Source: Nitrospira sp. (GTDB lineage Bacteria; Nitrospirota; Nitrospiria; Nitrospirales; Nitrospiraceae). From it: a stretch of DNA of 51,580 nt. The DNA is taken from assembly GCA_024998685.1 (NCBI GenBank), contig JACOEH010000036.1, positions 1 to 51,580 of the forward strand. The letters run 5' to 3'. Numbering within the stretch: the stretch's first letter is position 1; every line of letters begins with the position of its first letter. Below the pieces are notes generated by a model. That model was not told the origin of the DNA. It was given only the letters and a program-made list of their open reading frames with translations, and made no database searches. Made by a program: the position numbers and the translations under genes. Shown here one piece after another: positions 35,196 to 41,080 of the stretch.

Positions 35196-35750
35196 ATGAG
35201 TGAGACCGTCTTCATCGGATTCGGGTCGAACGTCGGCGATCGAGTCGATTTTTGCGATCGGGCGGTGACATTGCTCAGTCTCCTCCCGCATTCTCAACTC
35301 AAAGGTATCTCGCTGTTGTATGAGACGGAACCGATTCGGAATCGAACAGATCCAGGAGAAGGGTGGTTCCTCAATGGAGTTGCACAGCTAGAAACGAATA
35401 TTACGCCACGCAGTCTCTTAACAACCCTCCAGGAAATCGAACGCTCTCTCGGACGGGATGATGACAACCGGTCCGGTCCTCGTACGATCGACTTAGACAT
35501 CCTCTTCTATGGCGAGCATGTGATCGAGGAACCAGGATTGACCATTCCGCATCCTCGCCTCCATCAGCGACGCTTTGTCCTCATGCCGATGAATGAACTG
35601 GATCCGCTCTGGGTCCATCCGACGCTCAAACAATCGCTGGCTCAGTTATTGACCGAATCTCAGGACCAGTCACAAGTGCGACTCCTTTTTCCCCAGCCAT
35701 CAACGAGATACGGTTCGCGTCCCGCTTGCAGTTCACAACCCGGCTCATGA
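35196..35750 (+). CDS. folK: 2-amino-4-hydroxy-6-hydroxymethyldihydropteridine pyrophosphokinase
   Basis: A 184-residue HPPK of folate synthesis, which transfers pyrophosphate from ATP to the pterin. Family blocks: VFIGFGSNVGDR at the start, YETEPIRN, WFLNGVAQLET, the signature RSGPRTIDLDILFYG (about 93-107), and IPHPRLHQRRFVLMPMNEL. The only in-frame ATG near the family N-terminus is at 35196, with no good ribosome-binding site. The last 30 residues after LLTESQ extend beyond the usual HPPK end. The stop overlaps the panC start by 4 bp. Confidence 0.93.
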   Translation: MSETVFIGFGSNVGDRVDFCDRAVTLLSLLPHSQLKGISLLYETEPIRNRTDPGEGWFLNGVAQLETNITPRSLLTTLQEIERSLGRDDDNRSGPRTIDLDILFYGEHVIEEPGLTIPHPRLHQRRFVLMPMNELDPLWVHPTLKQSLAQLLTESQDQSQVRLLFPQPSTRYGSRPACSSQPGS

Positions 35751-36613
35751 AAATCATTCGCTCGCCCACGACCATGGCAGTTTGGAGCGAGAGACTTGTT
35801 CGCGAAGGAGTGAAGATTGGGTTCGTCCCGACAATGGGAGCCCTCCATGAGGGCCATCGGGCGCTGATCCGAGAAGCACGGTTGCGATGCGATGCGCTCG
35901 TCAGCAGTATCTTCGTGAATCCCGCGCAGTTCGGTCCTCAGGAAGATCTCGCCAAGTACCCACGCCCGATCTTGCAGGATCGAGCACTATGCCGAAAAGA
36001 AGGCGTTGATGTCTGTTTTGAGCCGACCGTAGAGGCGATGTATCCGAGCGGCTTTCAAACCATGGTGACATTGCCTGCAATTACACGCCGGTGGGAAGGA
36101 GAGGTGCGTCCTCATCATTTTTCCGGCGTGGCGACCGTCGTGACCAAGCTTTTTGGAATCGTCCGTCCTAAAATGGCGATCTTTGGGCAGAAAGATTTTC
36201 AACAATCGGCACTCGTCCGACAGCTGGTGAAGGATCTGAACCTCGGTGTGGAGATTGTCGTGCATCCTACGGTGCGCGAAGAAGATGGACTGGCTATGAG
36301 TTCGCGCAATGTTTATTTGACGCAGGACGAACGAAAGCGAGCCGTCATGCTCTACAAGAGCCTTCGAGCCGGTGCCGAGGCGATCGGAAGAGGCGTCACC
36401 GATGGGAAAGCAATAGGGTCAGCAATGGCCCAGGTCGTCAAGAAAGAACCGGCCATCACAATTGACTATCTGGCGGTCTGTGATCCAACAACTCTCGAAC
36501 CACTCTCAACAGTTAGGGGGAAGGCGGTGTTGCTCGGAGCGGTTCGTCTCGGGCCTGTTCGGCTCATCGACAATATTCTGGTCGTCGCCAAACAGGCACG
36601 GCGTAAGTTTTGA
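35747..36613 (+). CDS. panC: Pantothenate synthetase
   Basis: A 288-residue enzyme that joins pantoate and beta-alanine with ATP in the coenzyme A pathway. Motifs in order: PTMGALHEGH (HIGH-like ATP site), SIFVNPAQFGPQEDL, HHFSGVATVVTKLF, FGQKDFQQ and the KMSKS-like MSSRNVYL. The ATG at 35747 overlaps the folK stop (ATGA), so translation is coupled. An ATG-like start 21 bp upstream lies inside folK and is not needed. All active-site blocks look intact. Confidence 0.94.
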   Translation: MKIIRSPTTMAVWSERLVREGVKIGFVPTMGALHEGHRALIREARLRCDALVSSIFVNPAQFGPQEDLAKYPRPILQDRALCRKEGVDVCFEPTVEAMYPSGFQTMVTLPAITRRWEGEVRPHHFSGVATVVTKLFGIVRPKMAIFGQKDFQQSALVRQLVKDLNLGVEIVVHPTVREEDGLAMSSRNVYLTQDERKRAVMLYKSLRAGAEAIGRGVTDGKAIGSAMAQVVKKEPAITIDYLAVCDPTTLEPLSTVRGKAVLLGAVRLGPVRLIDNILVVAKQARRKF

Positions 36614-36774
36614 GCAAGGTTGTCTGTAGGTCTCGTGTGCACAGGTCCCGTTTCTCCAGCAGACCGTATTGAGCAATTCAACATATTGAAGGCCGAGATC
36701 GTCGCCTTCGGGCGTGCCAGAAGCGATAGTCGATCATCGAACTTTCCAATCGTACCAGCCTGCACACCTGCGCC

Positions 36775-36858
36775 TCACAGGATCCTGAATTTGCCATATC
36801 CATTCTGAATGGTGGTTTCGACCGTTCCGGCTCCAGATTTGGTGATGACGTTCACACT
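36775..36858 (-). pseudogene. Possible fragment of a TonB-dependent receptor plug
   Basis: Between two stop codons the minus strand reads SVNVITKSGAG, then TVETTIQNGYGKFRIL. The first part resembles the plug-domain end of TonB-dependent receptors (V-I-N-V-I-T-K-x-G), and in those proteins a beta-strand sequence comes next. The match is short. It could be a degenerate remnant or chance. Confidence 0.3.
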
Positions 36859-36929
36859 CTGTCAATCGCGTACATCCTGGATAGCAGAAGCCGGTCTTTT
36901 CAGAACTTCAAATGCTGGACCAAAAGAGG

Positions 36930-36966
36930 AGAATCTCTTTCGATTCAGGGTGAATCGAAAGAGATT
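36930..36966. promoter_or_regulatory. Perfect 16-bp inverted repeat, candidate activator site
   Basis: GAATCTCTTTCGATTC-agggt-GAATCGAAAGAGATTC: two 16-bp arms with no mismatch and a five-base spacer. Its centre lies about 160 bp upstream of the expected start of transcription from the sigma-54 promoter, the usual place for an enhancer-binding-protein site. No T-run follows, which argues against a terminator. Confidence 0.6.
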
Positions 36967-37081
36967 CAGCACAATGCCTGAAATTGAACCCTTACTCCTC
37001 ACGTGGTTACGTAATTTCCACCAAAGAAGCCAAATATGCCTTCGTAGTCTTGCTCTCTAAGTGCCTAGCCCATTCACTCCG

Positions 37082-37098
37082 TTGGCACAGGGGTTGCG
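37082..37098 (+). promoter_or_regulatory. Sigma-54 (-24/-12) promoter
   Basis: TTGGCACAGGGGTTGCG matches the sigma-54 consensus (TGGCAC-N5-TTGC), with GG and GC ten bases apart. It lies 46 bp upstream of the lipoprotein ATG on the same strand. Such promoters need an AAA+ enhancer-binding protein. Confidence 0.75.
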
Positions 37099-37143
37099 TG
37101 ATGACGTTCACAGCATTTGATGCACTGAGCTAACGAGGTGGTT

Positions 37144-38166
37144 ATGAGGAGCAATTTTTTTCTCATCCTAGTTTGCGCCGGCCTTGTCGGATGCACGATC
37201 GGCGATGTCCCTGCAGCGTTGCGTATCGACAGCGGTATGGACCCTGACAAGCAAGACCAGTACACCAGATTTAGAACGACGTACTATTTCCGAGTCCTGG
37301 ACTCCTGCAAAATTGATGGAAATCATTCACTGGACGATTATGCCCCCGGAATTCTCAAGGAGAGAAAGTCAGGGAAGACGAAAGTCGTCAATGACACTGT
37401 GTACCGGTTTCGCATGACGGGAAAAGCGAGTGCTCTCTTCAATAAGATAACTTTTGGCTCGGGAGTACTGCGCGCCGACCAAATAGACCCGTTCGGAAGT
37501 AGCGTGGAATATAAGAATGGTCGTTTCGAGGTTAAGACAGGATCTATAGCGCGTCAAAAAGAGTTACGTGGTGGATTGATAGAAGAGATCAGGGAATTAC
37601 GTGAGCTCCAAGACAGTCTGACGAAAGATCCAGCACAACCTCTCGCCTTGGAGGAGATTCAGAGAATAATTACAGATAGAGTGAAGTTGCTTAATGGCGG
37701 TGGCGCAGCCCCCTCCACAGCGCCCTCGGATGAAACATCTTCCAATGCTCTTTGCCCAGAAGGACGTCCGATTAAGAAAAGCTACTTTCTCTACGGCCCG
37801 GAAGGAGTACGTGAGCTCGATCCTGACGAACGCCTTCTCATGGCCATGTCGTCGGATAGCAAACCGCTCATCGGCATGCTGGAGGAATTGTCAGGAAGAC
37901 AGAGAAAGGCTTTAAGCGCGGCCAGTGGTGGAGCCAATATCCTGGTTCAAGAAGAAAACTGGATTGCCGACAGCAAAGACAAACTGAACCAGTTTGAGAA
38001 AAGTCTGGAGAATAATTTGGAGAAAAGTCTGAAGAATGAAAAGAATACGAGTGGAAATCCAATGGATGTGGTCGACAGGTTAATCGGTCAACGAAGGACT
38101 CGGGAAGGTCTGAATAATTCTGGTTCCGAGACTAGGGAAGTTCAGGATGATTCTCGTTACGATTAG
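37144..38166 (+). CDS. Lipoprotein of unknown function under a sigma-54 promoter
   Basis: A 340-residue lipoprotein. Signal peptide RSNFFLILVCAGLVGC with lipobox cysteine 17. An N-terminal domain with YTRFRTTYYFRVLDSCKIDG and VYRFRMTGKASALFNKITFG is followed by a charged helical stretch (ELRGGLIEEIRELRELQDSL), then LCPEGRPIKKSYFLYGPEG, and a C-terminal coiled-coil-like region (KDKLNQFEKSLENNLEKSL). No family is recognised. The ATG at 37144 is preceded by GAGG five to eight bases upstream. With the next gene, 97 bp away, it probably forms an operon controlled by sigma-54. Confidence 0.78.
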   Translation: MRSNFFLILVCAGLVGCTIGDVPAALRIDSGMDPDKQDQYTRFRTTYYFRVLDSCKIDGNHSLDDYAPGILKERKSGKTKVVNDTVYRFRMTGKASALFNKITFGSGVLRADQIDPFGSSVEYKNGRFEVKTGSIARQKELRGGLIEEIRELRELQDSLTKDPAQPLALEEIQRIITDRVKLLNGGGAAPSTAPSDETSSNALCPEGRPIKKSYFLYGPEGVRELDPDERLLMAMSSDSKPLIGMLEELSGRQRKALSAASGGANILVQEENWIADSKDKLNQFEKSLENNLEKSLKNEKNTSGNPMDVVDRLIGQRRTREGLNNSGSETREVQDDSRYD

Positions 38167-38263
38167 CCGACGCACAAAATGCAGGGAATCTGGCTGGGTA
38201 TTATCTGAGACTCTGAATTAATCAGACCTTCGCTAAGACTGCATCGCCGACAAAGGAGACACC

Positions 38264-39784
38264 ATGAAAACCTTCCGAAGGCTTGAGCTGCCGATTATTT
38301 TGCTGATTGTTGGTGTCCTGGGCCTTGCCGGCTGCAGCGCTCTCTCTGGGGCAGCCAATATGCGAATTGATGTCGAGGTCTACAAGGGTCCTCTCTCTGA
38401 GCGACCAATCGTCCAGTGGGGAATGATGAAAGGGCATTTGGAGTCCGCACGAAAAGCATTGATCGAGTCGAATAATTTCACGAGAGCGGTGATGGCAAAT
38501 AAGGGATTTCAACCTTGGCAGGGGTTTGGGGGAGCTAATAAAAAGAATTGGGATATACCAAGAATTGTGACGAATCTTGAAGGACACCTCGTACCATTAC
38601 CAGATCGGCTTGACTCAACGAAGTTGCAAGACGCCTGTAATGTTGTTAATCCTGACAATCCCTGGTATGACCTTAAATTTTGGCGCTTGTTTGGTCTCTT
38701 AGATGACATGGATCACTTCGATTGCTTGATCCTGATGACTTTGATATCAGATACAAACATGCTCCTTGAGAAAGTCCACGAGCTTGCCTCTAAAACTACA
38801 CCACCTTGGGGACCGGAATTGGATCCAAGTAATCCAGTTTTTATTGAGGACGCAGCGGAACTTTCCGGGATGCTGCGCGATCAAGCCTTTCGGTGGGCTG
38901 TGGCCTCGACTCCTGGTCAGTCATGGAACCGTTTGGTCCGCATTGCAGTGGTAACCGGAATAGTCACGTTCTCTGAAATCGGCAATCAGTTGAAATGTCG
39001 GGTCAATGCACTGGCTAAACAACTCAATGATGACATCGGTCTCGATCGGCGAGAATTACCACCCAGCGTCGCGTTATGTGATGCCGATCCTACGAATTTC
39101 GTGAACTTATATGACTATTTTAATGGGACGATGCCTGATTGGTTGGGGAAGTATGCCCTGGGAATGGGGACTGTAGAGGACCGGGCCAAAATTGTCAAAG
39201 ATCTCTTCGGTGACCATTACTGGTCGCGAATCAACACGGTCTATGCCAGCGGTCGAGGCAAGACGAGCATGGCTTTTATCAAGGACGATGTCGGCAATTG
39301 GAATCTCAAGAGTTTCGACAACGATCCCGAGGAGCTTTTAAAAGCCTATACGGATTTTTCAATCGAGGCTGCCAAGCGCGCAGCAATGGCCATTCAGAGC
39401 GCCAGCCCGGGAGGAGCGGTGACCCCCGCTCTTACACTTGCGACGAGCCTGATGGAACAAGCCACGACCAACGCATTTGGTCGAGAACCAGTCAGCGTGG
39501 AGGCGATGAATATTTCCCGTCTTCATAGAGAGGTCGAAGCCAGGTTGCAGGCTGTCGCCAAGAGATATGAGAAAGAAGACGCCACGCTCCTCAAAACCTA
39601 CACGGAAAAACGCCAAACCGTTAACGAGTCTGAAAATCCACAAAAAAAGAGGGACGAAGAGGCGGCGATGAAAAAAGCTAAGAATGACTTGCTCACAAAA
39701 CGTGGCAGCATGCTGAAGGAATTCCGCGCCATTATCCATGACTATGAAAAATCCGTATCGAATTATTCTGCAGCTGCGCGATGA
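38264..39784 (+). CDS. Large lipoprotein of unknown function
   Basis: A 506-residue lipoprotein with signal peptide ending in GVLGLAGC (cysteine 24). The mature part starts with NMRIDVEVYKGPLSERP and continues with mixed helical and strand sequence without catalytic motifs that I recognise. Residues about 425-500 are strongly charged and helical (VEARLQAVAKRYEKEDATLL, AAMKKAKNDLLTKR), probably a coiled coil. AAAGGAG lies six bases before the ATG. It is the second gene of the presumed sigma-54 operon. The two products may work together in the envelope. Confidence 0.78.
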   Translation: MKTFRRLELPIILLIVGVLGLAGCSALSGAANMRIDVEVYKGPLSERPIVQWGMMKGHLESARKALIESNNFTRAVMANKGFQPWQGFGGANKKNWDIPRIVTNLEGHLVPLPDRLDSTKLQDACNVVNPDNPWYDLKFWRLFGLLDDMDHFDCLILMTLISDTNMLLEKVHELASKTTPPWGPELDPSNPVFIEDAAELSGMLRDQAFRWAVASTPGQSWNRLVRIAVVTGIVTFSEIGNQLKCRVNALAKQLNDDIGLDRRELPPSVALCDADPTNFVNLYDYFNGTMPDWLGKYALGMGTVEDRAKIVKDLFGDHYWSRINTVYASGRGKTSMAFIKDDVGNWNLKSFDNDPEELLKAYTDFSIEAAKRAAMAIQSASPGGAVTPALTLATSLMEQATTNAFGREPVSVEAMNISRLHREVEARLQAVAKRYEKEDATLLKTYTEKRQTVNESENPQKKRDEEAAMKKAKNDLLTKRGSMLKEFRAIIHDYEKSVSNYSAAAR

Positions 39785-40090
39785 CTGTCTCGTGACTGTT
39801 ACGAGACTAGAAATGAGCGCTCTCAGTCTCATGAGAAGCGGGGATCAATAAAGCGGTCAGGAAAAGAAATTGGAATGCAGGCTTTGTCCTACTAGCAAGC
39901 TGAGGATCACCTGGCTGAGGCGGTTCTTACCGTCCGCCACCATTTCGAGGAACCGAATCCCCATCGATTCAGAACGCGAAGAACACATTATTTTACACCA
40001 CTAGTGGGGCTTACTAATCCCTCCATTTGTGGAAAAGCTTAGCAGCATTCGCTATCATGACGACGGTTAGCTTTCTGGAGATCTCGACGG
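39785..40090. other. Gap holding the PilZ-end duplicate and the mntA upstream region
   Basis: Starts with a small perfect stem, GTCTCGT-gactgtt-ACGAGAC (39787-39807), 3 bp after the lipoprotein stop, not followed by T residues. The 132-bp duplicate (39856-39987) comes next. Then a 10-bp palindrome CCACTAGTGG (39998-40007) lies about 85 bp before the mntA start and may be a regulatory site. No other gene is seen. Confidence 0.45.
39856..39987 (-). repeat. 132-bp duplicate of the PilZ gene 3' end
   Basis: Aligns without gaps to 40949-41080 with seven mismatches by hand count (about 95 percent identity). On the minus strand it still encodes the last 41 residues of the PilZ protein in frame, from CSSRSESMGIRFLEMV to HSNFFS and a stop, with four amino-acid changes. 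Similarity stops abruptly at both ends. The stop-codon-side end of the repeat is one base beyond the stop codon. Confidence 0.92.
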
Positions 40091-40429
40091 ATGACGAGCA
40101 GTCTCATATTTCCACCCGTGACGGACCAACTGCTGGTCGAAGTCGTCCGCCGCATTCTTACCATTGGTTCTCCCATCAAGATCGTGCTGTTCGGTTCCCA
40201 TGCCAAGGGGACTGCCCGTTCGGACAGTGATTTGGACCTGCTGATCATCGAAGAGTCCGATCTGCCGCGCTATCGGCGTTCGGGACGCTACCGACGGGTG
40301 CTCTGCGGTGTGTTTCCCGCCAAGGATATTGTCGTCTGGACTCCCCAAGAGGTCGAGGAATGGAAGGCCGTGCCCAATGCCTTCATCTCCACCGTACTGG
40401 CGGAAGGCAAGCTGCTCTATGAAAGATAG
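40091..40429 (+). CDS. mntA: MntA-type minimal nucleotidyltransferase antitoxin
   Basis: A 112-residue minimal nucleotidyltransferase. It has the GS-x10-DxD signature in FGSHAKGTARSDSDLDL (Gly35-Ser36, Asp47, Asp49). In characterised MntA-HepT pairs the nucleotidyltransferase adenylylates a residue of the HEPN toxin and so inactivates it. The stop lies 11 bp inside the start of the HEPN gene. The pair reads toward the 3' end of the PilZ gene. Which partner is the toxin is taken from the family, not from the sequence. Confidence 0.88.
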   Translation: MTSSLIFPPVTDQLLVEVVRRILTIGSPIKIVLFGSHAKGTARSDSDLDLLIIEESDLPRYRRSGRYRRVLCGVFPAKDIVVWTPQEVEEWKAVPNAFISTVLAEGKLLYER

Positions 40430-40817
40430 GTCGGCTCTGGCTCAAGGGTGGTTTCGGAAAGCCGACAGCGACCTTGCAGATGCCCGGCGCACGACCGCCA
40501 GTGAAGGGCCCTACGACACCGCGTGCTTCCATGCCCAGCAAGCTGTCGAGAAGTACTTGAAAGGAGTGCTTGCCTGGAGGGGCCTAGAAATTCCCCGCAC
40601 GCATGACTTGGAGGAACTTCAGCGTTTGTGCATCCAGCGTGAACCGTGGCCTGAGCTTGGGACCTGTGATCTCACCGACCTAACGGCCTATGCGGTCGAA
40701 CTTCGGTATGATGCGGAATTCTGGCCGCCGCAACCGACGGCCGCCGAGGCCGTCAAGTTAGCTGATCAAGTGCGCGTCTGCGTGTTTGCTCATATGCCGG
40801 CGGACACCCGACCATAA
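40419..40817 (+). CDS. HEPN-domain toxin
   Basis: A 132-residue HEPN protein: WFRKADSDLADARRTT, the helix CFHAQQAVEKYLKGVLAWRG, PRTHDLEELQRLC and YAVELRYDAEFW are the family blocks of HEPN proteins paired with minimal nucleotidyltransferases. Such proteins are RNases in several characterised pairs. The start at 40419 overlaps mntA by 11 bp. GGAAGG lies about 13 bases upstream, a little far, which suits translational coupling. Downstream a 131-bp gap separates its stop from the convergent PilZ gene. Confidence 0.87.
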   Translation: MKDRSALAQGWFRKADSDLADARRTTASEGPYDTACFHAQQAVEKYLKGVLAWRGLEIPRTHDLEELQRLCIQREPWPELGTCDLTDLTAYAVELRYDAEFWPPQPTAAEAVKLADQVRVCVFAHMPADTRP

Positions 40818-40948: not shown

Positions 40949-41080
40949 GTCAGGAAAGGAGATTAGAATGCAGGCTTTGTCCGACCAGCAAGCTGAGGAT
41001 CACCTGGCTGAGGCGGTTCTTATCGTCCGTCACCATTTCGAGGAACCGAATCCCCATCGATTCAGAACGCGAAGAACACA
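40949..41080 (-). repeat. Source copy of the 132-bp repeat, inside the PilZ gene
   Basis: The 3'-terminal 131 bp of the PilZ coding sequence plus one base. It is repeated directly at 39856-39987, so the MntA-HEPN pair and its flanks (961 bp) lie between two direct repeats. Confidence 0.9.

Follow-up and report, generated by a model that had tools for sequence, protein, structure and literature searches.

How is a pair of lipoprotein-like genes of no recognised family switched on, and does their control element belong to them alone? The question is raised by a stretch of Nitrospira sp. DNA (assembly GCA_024998685.1, contig JACOEH010000036.1; 51,580 nucleotides, analyzed whole and termed here the window), in which the intergenic stretch 36614-37143 carries a 37-bp element and a -24/-12 promoter 5' of lp1 (37144-38166, + strand, 340 residues) and lp2 (38264-39784, + strand, 506 residues). 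Based on comparison with related genomes, we consider the lp1-lp2 operon most probably (about 0.85) to be one unit of a sigma-54 regulon, in which an NtrC-type enhancer-binding protein (EBP) would act on tandem dyads, with the protein termed EBP-A as the likeliest candidate. This reading is drawn from the recurrence of the motif, its intergenic position, its coupling to -24/-12 elements and its operon linkage. Nitrospira are major nitrite oxidisers, and little on their control of transcription was found in the open-licence literature. As judged by motif searches, the putative control switch is one that recurs across many genomes of nitrite-oxidising Nitrospira and their relatives.

Tandem dyads upstream of -24/-12 promoters

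A first-pass annotation of this DNA had placed a -24/-12 promoter before lp1, and the promoter proved to be real. The + strand sequence TGGCACAGGGGTTGC (37083-37097) matches the consensus TGGCAC-N5-TTGC exactly, has the GG at -24 and GC at -12 expected of sigma-54, and is the only match with 0 mismatches in the window, whereas matches with up to 2 mismatches were at chance level (45 versus a shuffle mean of 49.5). The spacing to the gene was likewise as reported, with the 17-mer at 37082-37098 ending 45 bases before the ATG at 37144. Upstream, 115 bases separate the 37-bp element (36931-36967) from TGGCAC. Dyad and -24/-12 element are both kept before the two closest orthologous gene pairs with readable upstream DNA, the promoter being identical in genome G027 and TGGCGC-N5-TTGC in G007.

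The 37-bp element had been described as a perfect 16-bp inverted repeat with a 5-bp spacer. The palindrome is present and 37 bp in total; its arms (36931-36947 and 36951-36967) are 17 bp each, 100% complementary, and separated by 3 bp. What did not stand was the long palindrome as a unit. The element is laid out as GAATC-N6-GATTC, N5, GAATC-N6-GATTC, that is, as a dyad at 36931-36946 (an exact match to GWATC-N6-GATWC; no strand assigned) followed at 21 bp by a second at 36952-36967 (likewise unstranded), and the general motif is GWATC-N6-GATWC twice at a 21-bp pitch. Among 135 distinct sites (those in fetched stretches, out of 183 counted below), three features were constant, namely half-site sequence, length of the core (6 bases) and pitch (21 bp). 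By contrast, the N6 blocks of the two arms were complementary at 2.40 of 6 positions compared to 2.33 of 6 in randomly re-paired arms, and a perfect long palindrome was found in 3 cases, that of the window included. Because long-arm complementarity equals chance across these sites, the 37-bp element is read as a pair of tandem dyads, a predicted operator with no functional hairpin, the long symmetry being incidental. Bases that had not been searched for were conserved too (T before and A after each dyad at 65-74%, and A/T in mid-core, in 100 oriented sites), giving an extended consensus of approximately TGWATC-NAWTNN-GATWCA; at three places a third dyad follows at exactly 21 bp.

The genome search for the palindrome that the first-pass annotation had advised gave a divided answer: the full 37-mer is single copy within 3 mismatches, whereas the tandem layout occurs at 14 places in the same genome, with EBP genes linked to it. 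A dispersed repeat or mobile element was rejected on this basis, since only the half-site bases and the spacing recur. With GAATC-N6-GATTC as half of the query, 13 places were found within 3 mismatches and none with the reversed pattern. The GWATC version was found 8 times exactly, 6 times with one mismatch, never with two and 7 times with three, compared to 1 reversed control within 3 mismatches and 0 within 1. Across 59 genomes (the own genome and relatives, 35 of which belong to one genus), 183 tandem sites with 0-1 mismatch were detected in 32 genomes, overlapping sites of a triple being counted twice, and the reversed control gave 0 in every genome. Sites were present in 25 of the 35 genomes inside the genus and 7 of the 24 outside it, with 14 in the own genome and 16 in G012.

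These sites are intergenic, 129 of the 135 lying outside every called open reading frame (ORF) and the other 6 in weak ORFs (score of 38 or less), as called by a hexamer script that missed or split some genes. When -24/-12 elements were scored (hand-set weights on the consensus TGGCAYR-N4-TTGCW), a score of at least 10 was found 50-160 bp from 97 of the 135 sites, compared to about 6% expected. The coupling is one-sided: for the 134 sites with both flanks readable, such a score was found on one or both flanks in 96 and on both in only 3. In the first set of sites, 61 of 91 flanks facing a gene start reached this score, compared to 2 of 75 other flanks and 2.9% of 1820 shuffles. Independence cannot be assumed for orthologous sites, the 100 promoters representing 62 target groups. 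Within the own genome 12 of 14 sites were coupled, the exceptions being C102:1139 (8.9) and C73:5412 (7.5). Distances from dyad to promoter ranged from 54 to 153 bp, with clusters near 73, 97 and 120. A tandem dyad, dimeric and repeated as is typical of an upstream activator site for an EBP, is in this way coupled to -24/-12 elements, and sigma-54 control from such a site is strongly supported by the comparative data.

Predicted targets and candidate activators

In the own genome the sites precede, among others, lp1-lp2, the EBP-A operon, the gene of a second EBP (EBP-B), a multicopper-oxidase lipoprotein, two small lipoprotein-like genes and the gene of a 1091-residue beta/gamma-crystallin protein. 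One site has a two-partner-secretion exoprotein operon on one side and an animal-haem-peroxidase gene on the other, and another has a peptidoglycan-binding/CHAP protein facing an astacin-like metallopeptidase gene in the same manner. Targets in other genomes, where one member per group was scanned for families, included a TonB-dependent receptor group, a galactose-oxidase-like group, matrixin and astacin peptidases, a phosphoesterase, a caspase-domain group and a nuclease. Among 90 targets, the groups seen most often were the substrate-binding gene of the EBP-A operon, with 10, and the copper lipoprotein, with 8. By a crude rule, 17 of 90 targets have a lipoprotein signal, compared to 28 of the 495 remaining genes in these loci (p 1e-4, with orthologues left in), and a signal of any kind was seen in 39 of 90 compared to 130 of 495. 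Judged by these families and signals, the output of the regulon seems to be surface, envelope and secreted proteins. The regulated envelope function first suggested for lp1-lp2 thus survives as to its control, by sigma-54 and an upstream site; the element is not special to this pair, which is one unit among several.

EBP-A (481 residues) has a receiver domain, a sigma-54 AAA+ domain with GAFTGA and a Fis-type helix-turn-helix (HTH), and is co-encoded with a HAMP-GAF-HisKA histidine kinase and a PF04392 substrate-binding protein. The own genome has 36 stretches matching PF00158, and GAFTGA was read in EBP-A and EBP-B. The EBP-A operon has a dyad upstream of it in the own genome; among 20 further EBP-A loci that were fetched, 13 show the same arrangement and 2 are cut off. 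Two further genera are represented by G058 and G055, which encode homologues of the three operon proteins near one another, at 36-48% identity. Both have a dyad before the substrate-binding gene, accompanied by a -24/-12 element scoring 11.8, and both retain LQRTYL as the HTH core. Within the genus, EBP-A was detected in 20 of 25 genomes with sites compared to 3 of 10 without (Fisher p 0.015). At least one absence in this comparison is a contig end, as G013 (8 sites, EBP-A seemingly absent) has the substrate-binding gene and the kinase on a contig that ends before the expected place of EBP-A. Against ntrC (TIGR01818) EBP-A scored 417.2 bits, below the cut-off of 558.6, and it was also below the NCBIfam cut-off of every EBP family among the matches listed (25 of 110). 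By subtraction against the site-free genome G021, 30 EBP loci of the own genome were divided into 16 with a reciprocal best match, 13 with none and 1 with no readable protein. We give EBP-A roughly an even chance of being the activator; this estimate was lowered from slightly above even because in G058 and G055 the EBP gene does not share one operon with the other two.

Just 3' of the EBP-A gene of the own genome lies a second tandem dyad (L103, 1139-1175, contig C102), before a 56-residue ORF with a hydrophobic C-terminal half; its best -24/-12 score is 8.9.

By the mechanism that we propose, two dimers of an NtrC-type EBP would occupy the dyads at 36931-36967, spaced by some two helical turns. 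Once switched on, the EBP would oligomerise, loop the intervening 115 bp, contact sigma-54 RNA polymerase at TGGCACAGGGGTTGC and open the promoter through ATP hydrolysis. EBP-A would be phosphorylated by the histidine kinase of the adjoining gene, with the PF04392 substrate-binding protein as a possible sensor of a presumed signal. The EBP-A system would probably be self-amplifying, because the same dyad precedes its own operon, and its output would be an envelope and exoprotein programme. The sigma-54/EBP mechanism itself is textbook, and no publication on the tandem motif or the regulon in Nitrospira was found in the open-licence literature, as judged mostly from listings; the motif and the regulon may thus be new. 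A motif this sharp would predict which exported proteins of unknown function switch on together in those Nitrospira genomes that carry it, would place lp1 and lp2 in a cellular context as regulated exterior proteins, and provides two named and testable activators, EBP-A and EBP-B with its paralogue EBP-B2.

Several observations weigh against this account, in part or as a whole. No -24/-12 score of 10 was found for 38 of the 135 sites (including those beside a hemL-like gene, described below), and no 10.5-bp helical period was found in the dyad-promoter distances, for which the best fit was 11.8 bp. Five of the 20 further EBP-A loci (G023, G034, G025, G029 and G032) have no dyad in front; in G018, G007 and G026 another gene stands between dyad and substrate-binding gene; and the EBP gene of G058 and of G055 runs on the strand opposite to the other two, with other genes between in G055. 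In the one-contig genome G023, which has 9 sites, EBP-A aligns as residues 1-437 plus 439-480, as if frameshifted. G025, G029 and G032 encode EBP-A at about 70% and yet have no sites; their HTH reads LQRTYF in place of LQRTYL, a difference that may or may not be relevant to this absence. Conservation upstream of orthologues, to which the first-pass annotation had tied its promoter, is partial. Among nine Nitrospira-type lp1-lp2 pairs in named genomes, two (loci L293 and L294) carry the tandem dyad, one (L295) comes without upstream sequence, and six (L296-L301) are without the tandem dyad even when 3 mismatches are allowed, with -24/-12 scores of 8.1 at most in the stretches scanned. To these is added the distribution of EBP-B and EBP-B2, short EBPs of about 330-390 residues without a receiver domain: inside the genus, matches of at least 69% were found in 20 of the 25 genomes that have sites and in none of the 10 that lack them (Fisher p 1.6e-5), the copy in one of the 20, G013, being interrupted by stops.

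This profile raises the possibility that the same regulon is driven by EBP-B or EBP-B2, either active by default or held by a partner. EBP-B lies 129-132 bp after a dyad in three genomes, with a dyad also upstream in a fourth (G027), and a C39 peptidase resembling FapD is encoded some way downstream. By contrast, no EBP-B/B2 match at E 1e-100 was found in G048, G055 and G058, genomes of other genera with 5-9 sites, and G025, which is without sites, has a 63% match. In the loci read, the gene of EBP-B2, the widespread one of the two, was never accompanied by a tandem dyad, and the same was true of the EBP-B gene of G023 (L196); the EBP-B/B2 profile may simply track phylogeny. We hold this alternative only tentatively, and retain EBP-A as the leading candidate.

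In the own genome the EBP-B gene is followed by small exported-looking proteins and the C39 peptidase (L105, 1480-6045, contig C62), possibly a cluster that processes amyloid or peptides and is governed by the same switch. The C39-type protein matches NF058616 (C39_FapD, the Fap amyloid maturation peptidase) at E 7e-40, whereas its 136.7 bits fall below the cut-off of 330; by this measure it is a non-member, and it is only a neighbour of one regulon gene.

Other readings of the element and related systems

Tandem dyads are common for repressors too, and the dyads could bind a repressor or nucleoid-type protein, with the -24/-12 elements coincidental. Consistent with this, some sites are without a -24/-12 element and lie between converging genes. 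The one-sided coupling of the sites at large to -24/-12 elements argues against coincidence, and dyads 54-153 bp upstream of these elements suit an upstream activator and not a repressor that covers its promoter. Thus, we regard repression as improbable.

Eight of the sites between converging genes (L116, L126, L135, L139, L159, L164, L166 and L248) lie between a hemL-like gene, which we take to encode glutamate-1-semialdehyde aminotransferase (no family call), and a gene for a small protein. No -24/-12 element was detected within 300 bp of them (best score 8.1); a decoy site, an unseen small RNA or some other role is possible.

An intrinsic terminator or other RNA hairpin is less probable still. 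A terminator scan flags the element on the minus strand, with 17 pairs followed by TCCTCTTTTG. By contrast, a T-rich stretch stands at an end of only 29 of the 135 sites, no convincing minus-strand gene runs into the element, and 36500-40200 gave no Rfam match at gathering scores; a hairpin, terminator or RNA element was rejected on this search together with the comparison across the arms given above.

Least probable is that the element is a PEP-CTERM box, the site of PrsR for exosortase-linked surface proteins: the layout is alike (a repeated motif, a spacer, a sigma-54 motif and surface proteins), whereas motif 1 of that box is 17 nt ending in TTTACA and was reported for Proteobacteria only (Haft 2006, PMC1569441). 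Only 15 of the 135 dyads have TTTACA, in either orientation, within 160 bp, and it has no place in the 100-site consensus; the motif is a different one.

The tandem dyads are thus best read as activator sites of a sigma-54 regulon, and its closest relatives are NtrC-family EBP regulons, which share the upstream dyads, the -24/-12 promoter, EBPs with GAFTGA and a Fis-type HTH, and the receiver in EBP-A. They differ in the operator, here tandem GWATC-N6-GATWC at a 21-bp pitch, and EBP-A is below the cut-off of every EBP family among the matches listed. For sigma-54 in general, an output of exterior proteins has been argued (PMC3162934), to which the output predicted here is alike. The PEP-CTERM proteins of Proteobacteria provide a known case of surface proteins that form a regulon through a sigma-54 element (PMC1569441; PMC9850573), and the PrsK-PrsR system resembles the present one in a sigma-54 cis element before many surface-protein genes and a linked kinase and response regulator (PMC1569441). 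It differs in its motif; the kinase here is of the HAMP-GAF-HisKA type; none of the EBPs scanned reached the TIGR02915 (PrsR) cut-off of 502.6 bits (EBP-A 399.6, EBP-B 382.9, C102:74287 306.8); and lp1 and lp2 have no PEP-CTERM match, nor any NCBIfam family match at 0.01.

The lp1-lp2 cassette and its neighbourhood

That the two lipoproteins belong to no recognised family was confirmed by profile searches. Besides the NCBIfam result, Pfam gave nothing for lp1 up to E 1 and a best E of 0.061 for lp2, and neither protein had a PADLOC match at 0.001. No significant relatives by sequence were found in the PDB (best E 0.096), and structure models were of low confidence (mean predicted local distance difference test scores, pLDDT, of 57.5 for lp1 and 55.4 for lp2). 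By reading of the sequence, both are predicted lipoproteins with a signal peptide and a lipobox Cys: lp1 has a lipobox-like LVGC with Cys17 invariant in 11 of 11 aligned sequences, and lp2 has LAGC with Cys24 invariant in 3 of 3 but not across a wider set of 12. Conserved blocks are RFRTTYYFRV, which marks the lp1 family, and GPEGVR.LDPDERL in lp1, and MRIDVEVYKGPL, which marks the lp2 family, and SKINTVYASGRGK..MAFIKDDVGNWNLK in lp2.

Both genes occur together in 4 of the 59 genomes, own included. When 84,980 species genomes were scanned by pattern, lp2 was found at 17 loci. An lp1-like gene directly precedes it in 13, three of these by weak matches only (L306, L307 and L308); the contig of L295 begins at lp2, and L302, L304 and L309 gave no match to lp1. 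The holders are Nitrospira, a Nitrospiraceae bacterium, several Alphaproteobacteria (Ferrovibrio and others) and Aestuariibacter. On this gene order, lp1-lp2 is a conserved two-gene cassette, with lp2 as its predicted second gene. The lp2 relatives of L306-L308 are 1414-1524 residues long. Another of well over 1000 residues was read in G006 (L028, C9:87000-96000) as a single 1477-codon frame, with VDVYKG close to the N-terminus and KDDVGNW nearer the C-terminus.

As six more distant Nitrospira-type copies are without the tandem switch, the cassette probably came under this regulon in the lineage that comprises the own genome, G027 and G007, which suggests a route by which an existing regulon captures an orphan envelope cassette. 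Among the six, the N. defluvii-type copies (L296-L299) closely follow other genes, and L301 (G006) has, about 600 bp upstream, a single dyad that matches exactly, followed at 17 bp by another with one mismatch. A wider and doubtful proposal would be of one 'exterior' programme across Nitrospira and related genera, run by a two-component system with its own substrate-binding protein via one undescribed tandem operator. Its members would be lipoprotein cassettes, two-partner exoproteins, secreted metallopeptidases, amidases, oxidases and caspase-like proteins, and lp1-lp2 would be a mobile two-component envelope device of a new family, shared with Alphaproteobacteria and drawn into this regulon in one Nitrospira lineage to serve in contact with neighbours or in competition against them.

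In G027, two genes reading like transposases stand between the intact dyad/-24/-12 promoter and lp1 (L021, 4363-6684, on the same contig as L293); because of these, lp1-lp2 is read as cut from its promoter there. About 2 kb beyond the cassette's end in G007 is a gene of SIR2 type that resembles defence genes (PADLOC E 1e-112; L022, 1446-2546). A defence system was rejected, as lp1 and lp2 are without a PADLOC match, and this gene was taken as a neighbour only.

Within the window, the gene before the intergenic stretch (35726-36613) presumably encodes pantothenate synthase. Downstream of lp2, a 132-bp direct repeat (39856-39987 and 40949-41080, 95% identical) flanks a nucleotidyltransferase/HEPN gene pair (40091-40429, PF01909, and 40422-40817, PF05168), which looks like a duplicated or inserted module of toxin-antitoxin type. 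Each copy of the repeat holds one single GAATC-N6-GATTC dyad.

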